A stretch of 64,000 nucleotides of DNA from Pseudanabaena sp. M085S1SP2A07QC (GTDB taxonomy: Bacteria; Cyanobacteriota; Cyanobacteriia; Pseudanabaenales; Pseudanabaenaceae): positions 1 through 64,000 of the forward strand of contig JADBWK010000032.1 in the NCBI GenBank assembly GCA_020404895.1. Reading direction: 5' to 3'. Positions 11,364-58,680 of this stretch are shown here, one piece after another (position 1 is the stretch's first letter; the number at the start of each line of letters is the position of its first letter). The position numbers and the translations under genes were made by a program. The notes under the pieces are model-generated. The model did no database searches and was not told where the DNA came from. It saw nothing but the letters and a program-made list of their open reading frames with translations.

Positions 11364-11530
11364 AGTTTAATTGGGCAACGCTACATCACATTATTCTAGA
11401 TTTATCTAAGGCTAAATTTTCCGATGTGGTATGTCGCTTAGTTGCTTGCTAAGAAAAAACATACAGTAAGACATCAATACATTCTTCAACTGTAATTTCC
11501 TCTAAGGAATGAAACTTAATTAACTTGTGA

Positions 11531-11591
11531 AATTAAAACCAAAATTTGTTGGGGTGGGCTGCGCCCGCCCCAACAAATTTTGGTTTTAATT
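11531..11591. repeat. Long palindrome between rpn gene and VIT/vWA gene
   Basis: Arms AATTAAAACCAAAATTTGTT with a GC-rich centre. Weaker complementarity continues outwards to AGGAATGAAA/TTTTCATTCCT (about 11504-11604). This 359-bp spacer holds only this palindrome and the next repeat. Confidence 0.85.
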
Positions 11592-11630
11592 AATTTTCAT
11601 TCCTAAGTAGGTTGTTGAAATTAAATGTAG

Positions 11631-17490: not shown

Positions 17491-17562
17491 AGTAATTATT
17501 TGGCTGTCTCCATTTGTTGGCTATCAATTGGATCTTAACGCAGTACAAAGCGCCGTAAAACC

Positions 17563-17603
17563 AAAAAGAGAGTGGCGGCGCAAAGCGCCGCCACTCTCTT
17601 TTT
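17563..17603. repeat. Palindrome with GGCGGCGC core
   Basis: Perfect 19-bp arms AAAAAGAGAGTGGCGGCGC and loop AAA, upstream of the WD40 gene. Same core as 551-605 and 25218-25272 but different outer arms. Confidence 0.9.
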
Positions 17604-17693
17604 AGTCTATAGCTATAATCACTGCGTGTTAGCATATTTTCATAGGTATTTTCTATTTTCGTTCAGGCTAATCCAGCCTTGTTTTCGACCCAC

Positions 17694-19237: not shown

Positions 19238-19362
19238 GATTACATAAAATGCAGCTATCTGTGATGACGATCACCCATAAATAGGCGATCGCATACAACC
19301 AAAGTTTTATAAGAGTGATACGATATTTTTATGATTTATGCTATAAAGCAACCAAAATCAAT

Positions 19363-20523
19363 ATGAAATCATCTTTGCACGTTGATATTGTCTCAGCCAC
19401 AATACTAATTCTATCGTTCCAAGTTGCACAGGTTGATGCGGCTCCAACCAATAATCAAAGCTTTGAAAAATGGTGTTTGCAGAAGGATTCTCTTCTAGTA
19501 GAAACTAAAAAAACGGTTGATGTAATGCTCAAGAAATCTGGCACGCAAGACTGTAAGCTAGCTGAGATGAAGCTTAACAGCCTATCTACACTTTCGCTCA
19601 ACGGGACTCAAATCATTGATATTAAGCCTCTTGCAGGTTTGACTAAGTTAACGAAACTCTATCTCGGCGACAATAAGATCAGTGATATTAAGCCACTTGC
19701 GGGTTTGACTAAATTGACTTTTCTCGATCTAGGCAACAATCAAATTAGGGACATTAAACCACTTGCAGGTTTGACTAAGTTAACAGAACTCTATCTCTTA
19801 AGAAATAAAATCGCTGACATTAAGCCACTTGCGAGTTTGACTAAGTTGACTTTACTTTCGCTCAACAGCAATAAAATCATTGATATCAAGCCTTTTGTGG
19901 GCTTGACTAATTTGACTCACCTCAATCTTAGTAGCAATCAAATTAGCGACATTAAGCCCCTTGAGAGTTTGACTAATCTAACGGCACTCTTTCTTGGCGA
20001 GAATAAGATTGGTGATATTAAGCCGCTTGAAGGTTTGGCGAACCTAACTTTTCTCTCTCTCAGCAGGAACCAAATCAGTGATATTAAGCCACTTGCGGGT
20101 TTAACTAATTTAATGCTCCTTTATCTCGGTAAAAATCAAATTAGTAATGTTAAGCCACTTGAGGGGTTGACTAAGTTGAGTAACCTAATTCTTGAGGAGA
20201 ATCAAGTCAGCAATGTTAATCCACTTGCAGGTTTGAAGGATCTAACGGAACTCTCACTCAGTGATAATCAAATCACTGATGTTAAGCCACTTGTAGGGTT
20301 GACTATGTTGGATCGACTCTCACTCGGTGGTAATCAAATTAGTGATGTTAAGCCACTTGCGGATTTGACTCATCTAACGGTACTTGTTCTCGACGGTAAT
20401 CAAATCATTGATTTTAAGCCACTTGCGGGTTTGACTAAGTTGACCTACCTCGGTCTCAGTAACAACAAAATTAATGACAACTCCTGCCCAGTCAAACCTG
20501 AATCTGTTTGCACATTCTGGTAG
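19363..20523 (+). CDS. Secreted internalin-like leucine-rich-repeat protein
   Basis: About fourteen consecutive 22-residue repeats of the type LTxLxLxxNxISDIKPLAGLTK occupy about residues 55-375, forming a solenoid for protein binding. The ATG at 19363 (MKSSLHVDIVSATILIL) gives a proper signal peptide ending near VDAAP, so it is preferred to the upstream ATG at 19315. A Cys pair precedes the repeats (WCLQK, DCKLAE) and another closes them (CPVKPESVCTFW), probably as disulfide caps. The repeats are similar at DNA level (66-bp period), so recombination between units is likely. The ligand is unknown. Confidence 0.88.
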   Translation: MKSSLHVDIVSATILILSFQVAQVDAAPTNNQSFEKWCLQKDSLLVETKKTVDVMLKKSGTQDCKLAEMKLNSLSTLSLNGTQIIDIKPLAGLTKLTKLYLGDNKISDIKPLAGLTKLTFLDLGNNQIRDIKPLAGLTKLTELYLLRNKIADIKPLASLTKLTLLSLNSNKIIDIKPFVGLTNLTHLNLSSNQISDIKPLESLTNLTALFLGENKIGDIKPLEGLANLTFLSLSRNQISDIKPLAGLTNLMLLYLGKNQISNVKPLEGLTKLSNLILEENQVSNVNPLAGLKDLTELSLSDNQITDVKPLVGLTMLDRLSLGGNQISDVKPLADLTHLTVLVLDGNQIIDFKPLAGLTKLTYLGLSNNKINDNSCPVKPESVCTFW

Positions 20524-24192: not shown

Positions 24193-25215
24193 ATGTTAGA
24201 TTCGCCAGCAATTCGTCCTGAAGCTCTTGAACAGTGGCTTTCAGAAACAATCCAACAACATTATGTGGCGATGCTGCTTCGGCGAATCGGGATGACGCGG
24301 CGCAGAGCCGATTGTTTTGTTCGACTAGCCCTGTATTTATTTTTAAAAGATTGCCAATCGCGAAAAGTTCTCCCGAAATCACCACTGACGGAGTTATCTT
24401 TTCCACAAGGATGGGTTGAATGTAGCTGTCTCGAAGCCGCAGAAGTATTTTATAGCGACAAAGATCGGGGTGGCGATCGCTCTGCGGGGTTGATGCTTAA
24501 TAAGCTAGTTGATTTGGGGCTAATCCAAAAACAGTTTGACGGCAACTGCACCCAAATCAAAATTCAACCACCACCAGATCTACTTGAAAGTGACGCTCAA
24601 GACTCAAATATATGCTTTGCGATCGATGCTTTTGACCCGCGCAGTGATGCGATTCCGATCGCAAATTTGTTAGCTAGCAACTACAACTGGCTCAATCGCA
24701 ATAACGATGCAGTCACCTATCGCATTGCCAATATTCTTCGCGATTGGGCTAGTCAATATGCAGCAGGCTTACGAGTTCTGCGCCGTAGCGACAATCAAAA
24801 CCCTGTTGGTTTTTATGCTTTCTATCCGACTAAACGGGAATCAGAAATAAAGTTTTTTGAACCTCCTAGTCGCGGACTGCATTTGAGTCAAGTTTCTGAT
24901 ATTGATCCTTTTCAGATGGCTTTGGCAGGAGATGAAGCCTGTCAGTCCATTTTTGTGAGAAGTTGGGTGATTGATAGTGAATATCGACAAGCATCTCAGC
25001 CTAGTCTTTTGCTAGATTCTCAACAAACTCTCCAGAGAATGCAGCAAGATTTCCCGAATCTATGGGATATGTACACTTTAATCATTCACCCCAATTATGC
25101 AGCTTTAGCAGGAGCCTTAGGATTTCAAAAAACGAGTTCCGATCCAAAAATGCCTCTCTATTGGATGTATCAAGCAGTAGATCGCTTTCTCAAGCTTGAT
25201 ATGCAAAAATTATAA
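24193..25215 (+). CDS. Conserved hypothetical protein, possible GNAT-like C-terminus
   Basis: A 340-residue soluble protein. The N-terminal part (about 1-130) is helical and contains RRIGMTRRRADCFVRLALYLFLK and a winged-helix-like segment (LMLNKLVDLGLIQKQF). The C-terminal part (about 190-330) has strands and helices such as VGFYAFYPTKRESEIKFFE and LWDMYTLIIHPNYAALAGALGF, faintly like an acyltransferase fold. The resemblance is weak and I do not assign a function. Two Cys-rich spots are visible (ECSCLEA). It stands alone and is divergent from the lipid operon. Confidence 0.7.
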   Translation: MLDSPAIRPEALEQWLSETIQQHYVAMLLRRIGMTRRRADCFVRLALYLFLKDCQSRKVLPKSPLTELSFPQGWVECSCLEAAEVFYSDKDRGGDRSAGLMLNKLVDLGLIQKQFDGNCTQIKIQPPPDLLESDAQDSNICFAIDAFDPRSDAIPIANLLASNYNWLNRNNDAVTYRIANILRDWASQYAAGLRVLRRSDNQNPVGFYAFYPTKRESEIKFFEPPSRGLHLSQVSDIDPFQMALAGDEACQSIFVRSWVIDSEYRQASQPSLLLDSQQTLQRMQQDFPNLWDMYTLIIHPNYAALAGALGFQKTSSDPKMPLYWMYQAVDRFLKLDMQKL

Positions 25216-25217
25216 CC

Positions 25218-25272
25218 GTAAATGCAAAATAGGGTGGCGGCGCAAAGCGCCGCCACCCTATTTTGCATTTAC
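25218..25272. terminator. Perfect palindrome spanning two convergent gene ends
   Basis: 26-bp arms GTAAATGCAAAATAGGGT + GGCGGCGC, loop AAA. It starts 3 bp after the stop of the plus-strand gene, and the right arm contains the TAA (25269-25271) of the minus-strand J-domain gene. Confidence 0.92.
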
Positions 25273-26288
25273 CGATGAAATTGTACTAAAAACTCTAACA
25301 TTAACTCCTCTTCCGTCATTTGCTGTTGCTTCAAATCTGAAGGGCCCCTCAAAAACTCTTGAATCGTGATGCGGCGATCTCGAAAATCAAGCACAAATTG
25401 ATGAAGTTGTTCAACGACTTCGACATGAGCCTCAATCTCAAATAGAGCCTCACCAATAGGATCACCGCCATATTTAGTGATCTGTTGAAAAACAGTAGTC
25501 ATTTCACCCTGTTGAGTTTTTTTTGTGAGTTTAAGTTGTTGCTTGAGGGTAGCGAGTTGCTCCTTCAGAAAAGAATTTTCTGACTCCACCTTCGCACAAT
25601 GTCGAGTCAGATCATCGGAACTATCGCGATCAATTAATGCTTCCAGCTCTTGCTGCTTCTCGATATCCAAAAGCCTTGCCAAGTCGCCATTTTGATAAGC
25701 TAGATTGATTTCCTTCATCACCTCAGTACGAAAAGCTTTTTCCACTTCATCGGTAACTTTGTCAGGGTGAAAGCGATCGGCTAGACGCAAAAAAAGCTGG
25801 CGAATCTTTTTTAGATCATCTCGATCGGGTCTTGCAATATCTTCCATAACTTCCTGATGCGATCGCCTCTCATAGCCTCTCCATTCCGACTCATCCTCAG
25901 AATCATCAACTTCCACATCAGCAGCAGTAGGCAACTTTTGAGGACTGATCAGCCCATCTGCTTGGAGATGATAGTAAACTGACTCGATATCTTTTCGAGA
26001 TTTCTTCCCCAACTTTCGACCAGCGAAAATTTCCTTAAATACTTCATGGATTTGGCGATCGAGTTCCAATATTTTTTGACGAAAAGGAGCGACGCGCTGA
26101 GCGATCGCAATCCCAACATCCTTAATGCTATCGTTGAGCTTATTTAATTTAGAACGATTTGACTCAATTTGTTTGAGCAATTTCTCATTTTCTTTCTCCA
26201 AAAAATTAAGCCGATTCCGCAAGTCAGATAGCCCAAGAGTCCCTTGGGAAGATGTAGCAGAACGAGTAGATTTAGATTGTCGCGCCAT
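25269..26288 (-). CDS. Coiled-coil protein with central J domain
   Basis: Around residues 155-205 lies a J domain with the HPD tripeptide in LFLRLADRFHPDKVTDEVEK, followed by MKEINLAYQNGDLARLLDIE. J domains recruit and stimulate Hsp70 ATPase. The N-terminus (about 18-65, LNFLEKENEKLLKQIESNRS) and the region about 225-260 are coiled coils. There is no Gly/Phe or zinc-finger region, so this is a type III J-protein, with an unusual central J domain. Client and DnaK partner are unknown. The gene is transcribed alone, and the stop is within a palindrome arm. Confidence 0.82.
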   Translation of the reverse strand: MARQSKSTRSATSSQGTLGLSDLRNRLNFLEKENEKLLKQIESNRSKLNKLNDSIKDVGIAIAQRVAPFRQKILELDRQIHEVFKEIFAGRKLGKKSRKDIESVYYHLQADGLISPQKLPTAADVEVDDSEDESEWRGYERRSHQEVMEDIARPDRDDLKKIRQLFLRLADRFHPDKVTDEVEKAFRTEVMKEINLAYQNGDLARLLDIEKQQELEALIDRDSSDDLTRHCAKVESENSFLKEQLATLKQQLKLTKKTQQGEMTTVFQQITKYGGDPIGEALFEIEAHVEVVEQLHQFVLDFRDRRITIQEFLRGPSDLKQQQMTEEELMLEFLVQFHR

Positions 26289-27051: not shown

Positions 27052-28263
27052 ATGACTTGTACTAAAAAATGGCTTACAGTAGTTGGTATTGGGGAAGATG
27101 GACTGTCAGGACTAAGCCCAGCAGCCCGATCGCTAATTGATACTGCCGAAATTTTAGTAGGTGGAGATCGCCATTTAGCGATGCTTCCTGAAGATCTGCG
27201 ATCGCGATTAGTATGGGCTTCTCCAATTGAAGAAACTGTTCAGAAAATCATCAATTATCGCGACAAATCAGTATGTGTCTTAGCTAGTGGTGATCCACTT
27301 TGGTTTGGAATTGGTACTACTTTATTAAGAAGAATTCCCATAGAAGAAGTTTCGATCATTCCCTCGTCTTCCACTTTTAGCTTGATTTGTGCGAGATTAG
27401 GATGGTCATTGAATGAAGTGGAAACTCTCAGCTTATGTGGTCGTCCTGCTTCACTATTGCTCACTTACATCTATCCAAACGCCAAACTTCTAATTCTTAG
27501 TTCTGGAAAAGAAACTCCTAAGATTGTTGCCGAGATGCTATGCGATCGCAATTTCAGCAATAGCAAAATCATCGTATTAGAACATCTCAACGGCATAAAA
27601 GAACGTGTTATTTATAGTGTGGCGAATCAATGGCAAACCCTTCCTGAATTTGCCGATCTTAATGCGATCGCAGTGGAATGTATTCCCGATTTTGATGCGA
27701 AGATTCTATCACGCATAGTTGGGCTTCCCGATGATGCTTATCATCATGATGGACAATTAACTAAACGAGAAGTTAGAGCCATCACATTATCCGCACTTGC
27801 TCCAAATGCGGGTGAACTACTTTGGGATGTTGGCGCTGGTTGTGGTTCCATTGCAATCGAGTGGATGCGAAGTCATCCGCGCTGTCAGGCGATCGGGATC
27901 GAAAAATCTCGTACACATTTCATTGCGGAAAATGCAATTTCACTCGGCACACCAAATCTCAAAATCATCGAAGGCAAAGCACCTGAAGTTTTGCAAGGTT
28001 TACCCACTCCTGACGCAATTTTTATTGGCGGCGGCGCGAACATACCAGATTTATTTGAGACTTGCTGGACAAGCTTGCGATCTCAAGGGCGCTTAGTTGC
28101 CAACGTAGTTACCCTTGAGGGCGAACAAAAATTATTTCAGTGGCAGCAAAAATATGGTGGTACGCTCACCCAAATTTCGATTAGTCGTGCTGAAGCGATC
28201 GGCTCTTTTCTTGGCTGGAAGCCAATGCGACATGTAACCCAATGGAAAATTATTAAGCCTTGA
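27052..28263 (+). CDS. cbiET: Precorrin-6Y/cobalt-precorrin C5,C15-methyltransferase (decarboxylating)
   Basis: Fusion of CbiE (about residues 1-205, tetrapyrrole methylase with VVGIGEDGLSGLSPAARSLI and SGDPLWFGIGTTLL) and CbiT (about 215-400, SAM motif ELLWDVGAGCGSIAIEWMRS). Together they methylate C5 and C15 of the corrin ring and remove the C12 acetate carboxyl in cobalamin synthesis. The 403-residue length equals CobL-type fusions. Other corrin genes lie at 47.6-51.2 and 58.7-60.1 kb. No riboswitch is visible upstream. The final codons and stop are copied in inverted orientation by the palindrome at 28253-28319. Confidence 0.95.
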   Translation: MTCTKKWLTVVGIGEDGLSGLSPAARSLIDTAEILVGGDRHLAMLPEDLRSRLVWASPIEETVQKIINYRDKSVCVLASGDPLWFGIGTTLLRRIPIEEVSIIPSSSTFSLICARLGWSLNEVETLSLCGRPASLLLTYIYPNAKLLILSSGKETPKIVAEMLCDRNFSNSKIIVLEHLNGIKERVIYSVANQWQTLPEFADLNAIAVECIPDFDAKILSRIVGLPDDAYHHDGQLTKREVRAITLSALAPNAGELLWDVGAGCGSIAIEWMRSHPRCQAIGIEKSRTHFIAENAISLGTPNLKIIEGKAPEVLQGLPTPDAIFIGGGANIPDLFETCWTSLRSQGRLVANVVTLEGEQKLFQWQQKYGGTLTQISISRAEAIGSFLGWKPMRHVTQWKIIKP

Positions 28264-28319
28264 AGCGAACTTTGTGATAGTGCCGACGGCACTATCACAA
28301 AGTTCGCTTCAAGGCTTAA
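28253..28319. terminator. Palindrome whose left arm contains the cbiET stop
   Basis: 33-bp perfect arms around a single central base. The left arm covers the last coding bases and TGA of cbiET, and the right arm is its exact inverse copy. There is no T tract after it. Confidence 0.92.
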
Positions 28320-28332
28320 ATATGTTGCAACA

Positions 28333-28396
28333 TATTTCAATTAACCCGTTTTAACGGGTTTTAGCTTTTAGCTCGCACTTGAGTGCAGGGCTACTG
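28333..28396. repeat. Modular hairpin repeat (AACCCGTTTTAACGGGTT, GCACTTGAGTGC)
   Basis: Matches the right-hand modules of the element at 17694-17841, including the TTTTAGC linker, the GTGCAGGG run and the CTACTGC end. The AGGACTTA termini are lacking here. Confidence 0.75.
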
Positions 28397-58641: not shown

Positions 58642-58680
58642 AAAAGATGAAAGCAGCGCAAAGCGCTGCTTTCATCTTTT
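58642..58680. terminator. Palindrome 3' of cbiA
   Basis: AAAAGATGAAAGCAGCGC-AAA and exact complement, 18-bp arms, 4 bp from the cbiA stop. Confidence 0.88.

Follow-up and report, generated by a model that had tools for sequence, protein, structure and literature searches.

A perfect palindrome at the 3' end of cbiET in Pseudanabaena, probably made by template-switch copying of the gene end

Introduction

How long, perfect hairpins arise in genomes and how they stay perfect is an old question, for which template switching has been proposed, natural events being rare and scattered. The question is raised by a palindrome that spans the stop codon of cbiET in Pseudanabaena sp. M085S1SP2A07QC, within the 64,000-nucleotide stretch of DNA that was analyzed here (the window). 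Such a locus is informative in that coding sequence forms a fixed reference arm, which gives the direction of copying. Here we ask how the second arm came to be the inverse copy of the first, and what keeps the two alike.

The palindrome at the end of cbiET

The locus comprises the following features, given by window position.

27052..28263, + strand: cbiET, fused precorrin-6Y C5,15-methyltransferase CbiE-CbiT; 403-aa open reading frame with stop codon TGA at 28261-28263
28253..28285, + strand: left arm of the palindrome; 28253-28260 coding, 28261-28263 stop codon, 28264-28285 non-coding
28286..28286, no strand: central base of the palindrome; A in the window's genome (G000), T in strain UWO311 (G008)
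28287..28319, + strand: right arm of the palindrome; non-coding, inverse to the left arm at every base and, as the comparison below shows, derived
28343..28363, + strand: separate, ordinary intrinsic-terminator-like hairpin with a T-rich tail, AACCCGTTTTAACGGGTT TTAGCTTTTA, found by a terminator scan and conserved in strain UWO311

The assignment of this vitamin-B12 pathway gene is supported by matches of the product to TIGR02467 (E 1.1e-44) and TIGR02469 (E 6.6e-33), each over its cut-off. A re-reading of 28253-28319 bore out the first-pass annotation, which had described perfect 33-bp arms around a single central base (TTAAGCCTTGAAGCGAACTTTGTGATAGTGCCG A CGGCACTATCACAAAGTTCGCTTCAAGGCTTAA); a scan of the whole window identified this palindrome as its longest, and shuffled copies of the window contained no palindromes with arms of at least 15 bp. 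The left arm does include the last codons of cbiET and its TGA, as had also been claimed, with eight coding bases (part of an I codon followed by the K and P codons) preceding the stop. The further claim that this arm is constrained by coding stands for the coding and stop part, which makes up only 11 of the 33 nt, the remaining 22 bases (two thirds) being non-coding.

The RNA fold of the palindrome is very stable (-56.8 kcal/mol on either strand; z = -15.7), with none of 200 shuffles equally stable. A canonical intrinsic terminator has a GC-rich hairpin followed directly by a T tract, and no T tract was found 3' of 28319; the terminator-like hairpin listed above starts 24 bp downstream of the palindrome. 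The earlier judgment that a plain terminator does not fully account for this structure therefore holds, as the palindrome lacks a T tract and is followed by a distinct terminator. A genome search placed the palindrome at one site only in its own genome, and no similar copy other than the orthologue was found in 1.3 Mb of Pseudanabaena DNA.

Origin of the right arm

cbiET was present in 26 of 26 genus members. Both the window's genome and its closest relative, strain UWO311, carry the palindrome; in three outgroups (G019, G017 and G010) the coding end TTAAGCCTTGA is kept and the palindrome is absent. The gene start downstream is the same in G019 and G017 as at this locus, and G010 is a further close outgroup. 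Since these outgroups have the gene end without the palindrome, the coding arm is ancestral and the right arm a derived copy, which supports the suggestion of the first-pass annotation that the right arm arose by inverse copying of a gene end that was already there. On this distribution the palindrome arose in the ancestor common to the two strains that carry it. An arm that is the inverse copy of older neighboring sequence is what a hairpin made by template switching would have.

Changes mirrored between the arms

Between the window's genome and strain UWO311, 8 of the 67 sites of the palindrome differ, versus 0 of the next 152 bases downstream (Fisher p = 6e-5); 32 sites differ in the 400 bases upstream. 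The changes comprise two inner stem pairs altered on both sides, three one-sided changes, two of which yield G-T wobbles, and the exchange of the central A for T. The one-sided changes seem better explained by single substitutions than by template switching, and the A/T flip, being one base only, would be weak evidence of loop inversion by itself. Over 653 stem pairs aligned between the two genomes, 14 double changes from one Watson-Crick pair to another were counted alongside 38 single changes, where about 0.7 doubles would be expected under independence, and insertions mirrored across both arms were also seen. Multi-base changes mirrored in both arms, as template switching would produce, are thus found both at cbiET and across the samples.

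The first-pass annotation had proposed to check whether the non-coding arm follows changes in the coding arm. For the cbiET palindrome itself, this comparison met a coding arm that is identical in both strains sharing it. Elsewhere the arms do track each other. Among the alignable stop-spanning palindromes of the same two genomes, two differ on the coding side (ACC to CCC; CTA to CCA), and in each the other arm carries the mirror change. A stop-spanning hairpin is found at cbiET in 11 of 26 species, with sequences that differ between species, and in six species that have a convergent neighbor and their own stop-spanning cbiET hairpin the non-coding arm matches the stop codon throughout (TAA/CTTTTAAAAT, TGA/CTTTCAAAAA and TAG/CTTCTAAAAT). 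In the alignment of these six, four pairs have changed in both arms and pairing extends to 87% of cells, versus at most 55% with the arms slid; the shuffle and slide controls rest on four to six sequences and are statistically weak, and one slid version reached a comparable covariation score, but not a comparable paired percentage. The loop of this hairpin is GAA in one of the species and TTC in others, which is an inversion.

Three further genes traced across the genus gave a similar picture, with long helices that take in 10-13 bases of the gene end, inner pairs swapped jointly, loops in alternative orientations between species (AAA/TTT and GAA/TTC) and 98.7-99.2% of alignment cells pairing. 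In the hairpin of a glycosyltransferase-like gene, a single pair position is seen as A-T, T-A and G-C. The pattern that had been named as refuting the proposal, a coding arm that varies while the other arm stays fixed, was not seen within paired arms; tracking is absent only at outer positions past the helix ends, e.g., columns 1 and 4 of the six-species cbiET alignment. As a separate observation, in the assembly of one species (locus L248 of G013) a run of N falls exactly within the stop-spanning hairpin with which the glycosyltransferase-like gene ends; assemblies can break at hairpins of this type.

Inversion of loops

Exact inversion of loops of at least 3 nt was counted in a very close pair of strains (G025 and G023; 278 kb aligned, 0.61% SNPs). 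Of 91 palindromes whose arms reach 11 bp or more, 20 had an inverted loop; among 176 with 7-10 bp arms there were none (Fisher p = 1e-10). This flip rate rests on a single pair, one member of which is a metagenome assembly. The frequency of inversion did not rise further for arms above 20 bp. In one case (16615) the loop was inverted while the left arm was corrected to the right arm, and in another (13816) an internal mismatch was inverted together with the loop. Loop inversions between the window's genome and strain UWO311 (5 of 27 eligible palindromes) and the loops compared across species agree with this count but are less clean. As a control, Escherichia coli K-12 and REL606 showed 0 of 15 eligible loops inverted; with 0.5 palindromes with arms of at least 15 bp per 100 kb, this species offers too few loops to establish a difference in inversion rate.

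Turning a loop around restores no base pair in the RNA; selection on RNA therefore does not predict it, and an event at the level of DNA is needed. Loop inversion, as counted in the 20 of 91 and 0 of 176 palindromes above, is again what template switching would leave behind.

Abundance and placement of palindromes in the genus

In three well-sampled Pseudanabaena, palindromes with arms of at least 15 bp have a density of 29-39 per 100 kb, and five further members of the genus together give 35 per 100 kb; the figure for 15 pooled samples of other cyanobacteria is 5 in 300 kb (about 1.7 per 100 kb). Extrapolated from samples of 244-380 kb per strain, on which all genome-wide figures here are based, a Pseudanabaena genome would hold approximately 1,400-1,900 such palindromes. 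Their density is highest between convergent genes (3.3 per kb), followed by tandem (1.8) and divergent (1.0) arrangements, and is near zero inside genes (0.008). A stop codon is spanned by 40 of 294 palindromes, and about a third of gene-end palindromes have a T tract. The most frequent loop length is 3 nt (146 of 313), with a further peak at 1 nt (48); among 3-nt loops, GAA/TTC, AAA/TTT and GTA/TAC occur most often. GNA triloops closed by C-G are unusually stable DNA mini-hairpins, and such stability would favor a DNA intermediate.

The window holds a second palindrome of the same kind.

25208..25282, no strand: palindrome between the convergent gene ends 25215(+) and 25269(-)

Its 26-bp perfect core (25218-25272) includes the stop codon of the minus-strand gene. 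Part of the set is dispersed: 41 of the 95 palindromes in the sample of the window's genome have a similar copy, with common ends AAAACC..GGTTTT and the core GGCGGCGC. Within the window, dispersed palindromes were noted at 551-605, 11531-11591, 17560-17606, 25208-25282 and 58642-58680, several with a GGCGGCGC-like core and AAAACC..GGTTTT-like ends. Positions 11502-11613 form a MITE-like, palindrome-bearing element of 107-114 bp with 90-94% identity to other places in strain UWO311. Additionally, 19261-20512 can be aligned to that genome at numerous offsets, 66 bp apart, and seems to be a region of 66-bp tandem repeats that is longer in UWO311.

A divergent second SbcD and a second SbcC, adjacent in many Pseudanabaena genomes, co-occur with the abundance of palindromes. 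Example loci of this second SbcCD, which most other Pseudanabaena have likewise, are as follows.

G000 (the window's genome), contig C101, 147059-161713: second SbcCD
G017, contig C6, 122345-126497: second SbcCD
G021, contig C1, 3376904-3382119: second SbcCD

No loss of a known template-switch suppressor was found, which counts against template switching: xseA, the gene that was checked, is present in all Pseudanabaena, and loss of ExoVII was therefore rejected as a cause.

Proposed mechanism and alternative explanations

From these sequence comparisons, the cbiET palindrome is probably the product of templated DNA copying, by template switching, at a gene-end hairpin. As the end of cbiET was replicated, the growing strand would have turned back on itself, or moved over to the sister strand, and duplicated its final ~33 bases inversely, giving the right arm in the ancestor of the window's genome and strain UWO311. 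The hairpin would then have become a local hot spot, where later switches overwrite either arm with a copy of its partner, so that the two change together, and also invert the loop. The same process would act on the 1,400-1,900 palindromes estimated per genome in the genus; those at gene ends would survive because a hairpin does little harm there and can often serve as a 3'-end or terminator structure. The derived right arm, the paired changes, the mirrored indels, the loop inversions with their arm-length threshold and the local excess of change are read directly from the aligned genomes; template switching in replication would be the agent behind them, and retention at gene ends would be due to selection on RNA.

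The paired changes alone could also stem from RNA selection, and an RNA hairpin (a terminator or 3'-end protector) might be kept solely in this way, a point mutation in one arm being followed by a selected compensating mutation in the other. The concentration of palindromes where two genes end and their near absence inside genes agree with this explanation, as do the T tract at about a third of gene-end palindromes, the stable RNA fold at cbiET, the G-U wobbles among the one-sided changes and the absence of Rho from cyanobacteria (PMC13289151). However, such selection predicts neither exact loop inversion nor the 11-bp arm threshold, and it does not predict mirrored indels or double changes that are nearly half as frequent as single ones. 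At cbiET, the palindrome evolves faster than the DNA immediately downstream and lacks a T tract, and the separate terminator at 28343-28363 leaves a simple terminator incomplete as an explanation. Selection on RNA as the sole cause is therefore unlikely; it probably acts as a filter that concentrates palindromes at gene ends and excludes them from genes. Template switching accounts for all the observations jointly, whereas RNA selection alone accounts for position and paired changes but not for loop inversion.

A DNA-level alternative is that a cruciform or hairpin is extruded, cut (e.g., by the extra SbcCD) or recombined, and resealed, so that the centre flips and one arm is converted from the other. 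The inversion of a whole central segment including its mismatch (case 13816) would fit, and so would the gene content, as a second SbcC is found in Pseudanabaena genomes and a second SbcD is over the cut-off in 25 of 26, with neither over the cut-off in 32 other cyanobacteria. The SbcCD duplication is, however, a single event in one clade and its link to the palindromes a correlation only; in case 16615 a mismatch was repaired along with the loop inversion, an outcome expected of copying, and hairpin cutting is not expected to give precise, loss-free resealing. We consider breakage quite unlikely on these grounds. The insertion of a mobile palindromic element (REP or MITE) at the stop codon is very improbable, even with 41 of 95 sampled palindromes resembling another copy: the outer arm at cbiET is the host gene's own sequence and older than the palindrome, every stop-spanning palindrome mirrors its own gene, and the cbiET palindrome, having no similar copy in its own genome or in 1.3 Mb of Pseudanabaena DNA except its orthologue, was rejected as a member of a mobile repeat family. 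Neither a dispersed family with this arm nor target-site duplications were found. Hairpins can disturb assembly, as the N run in G013 illustrates, but a sequencing or assembly artefact is extremely improbable, since the cbiET palindrome is found in two independent genomes. Sequencing reads are much longer than most palindromes with inverted loops, and above 20 bp longer arms bring no increase in inversion, contrary to what k-mer ambiguity would give; both observations argue against an artefact.

Relation to known systems

Template switching is known to create hairpins, homogenize their arms and invert their loops (PMC8794818; PMC8604942). The Pseudanabaena palindromes share with template-switch mutation (quasipalindrome correction) and with yeast inverted repeats the inverse copying of an arm, the homogenized arms, the loop inversion and the multi-base compensatory changes in one step. 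They differ in that a fifth of the eligible palindromes were inverted in a pair diverged by 0.6%, and in that protein-coding gene ends frequently supply the copied sequence; the events described previously are scattered, with 69 loop inversions across large rRNA alignments and, separately, 39 yeast genes (PMC8794818; PMC8604942). The mechanism is thus known, and its genus-wide intensity appears to be new. A search of open-licence PubMed Central papers turned up no account of this intensity, of its extent across the genus or of coding ends serving as templates.

As a tentative reading, Pseudanabaena may run an unusually active DNA-level system, possibly tied to the second SbcCD, that writes inverse copies of gene ends downstream and keeps flipping and re-copying them. 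Hairpins at transcript ends would then come from mutation bias and not from stepwise selection, and loop orientation would be a fast, nearly neutral clock or switch. Covariation of this kind in a hairpin is not automatic proof of RNA selection. By extrapolation, a single genome of this genus offers well over 1,000 examples, in which the arm-length threshold is sharp and the rate of inversion can be measured, and the second SbcCD is a candidate gene difference.

With intrinsic (Rho-independent) terminators and the inverted repeats after stop codons in E. coli (PMC6060812), the palindromes share the position at gene ends, a strong hairpin and, in about a third of those in the genus, a T tract. 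The cbiET palindrome differs from them by its 33-bp perfect arms that enter the coding sequence, the missing T tract and the downstream terminator, and the genus palindromes by loops of 1 or 3 nt. REP elements, REPINs and MITEs (PMC3733652; PMC3116915) are likewise many short intergenic palindromes, and some of those in Pseudanabaena belong to a dispersed family; unlike these elements, the cbiET palindrome is single-copy and built from the end of a host gene.

A survey of loop polymorphism in bacterial inverted repeats (PMC13155455) likewise reports loops that vary more and arms that vary less than expected, most strongly at terminators. The loop-length peak in bacteria at large is given there as 4 nt, unlike the peaks at 3 and 1 nt in Pseudanabaena. 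The survey counts SNVs, and no passage on loop inversion was found in it, whereas exact inversion is shown here. Exact loop inversion could be one cause of the high loop polymorphism that it describes.
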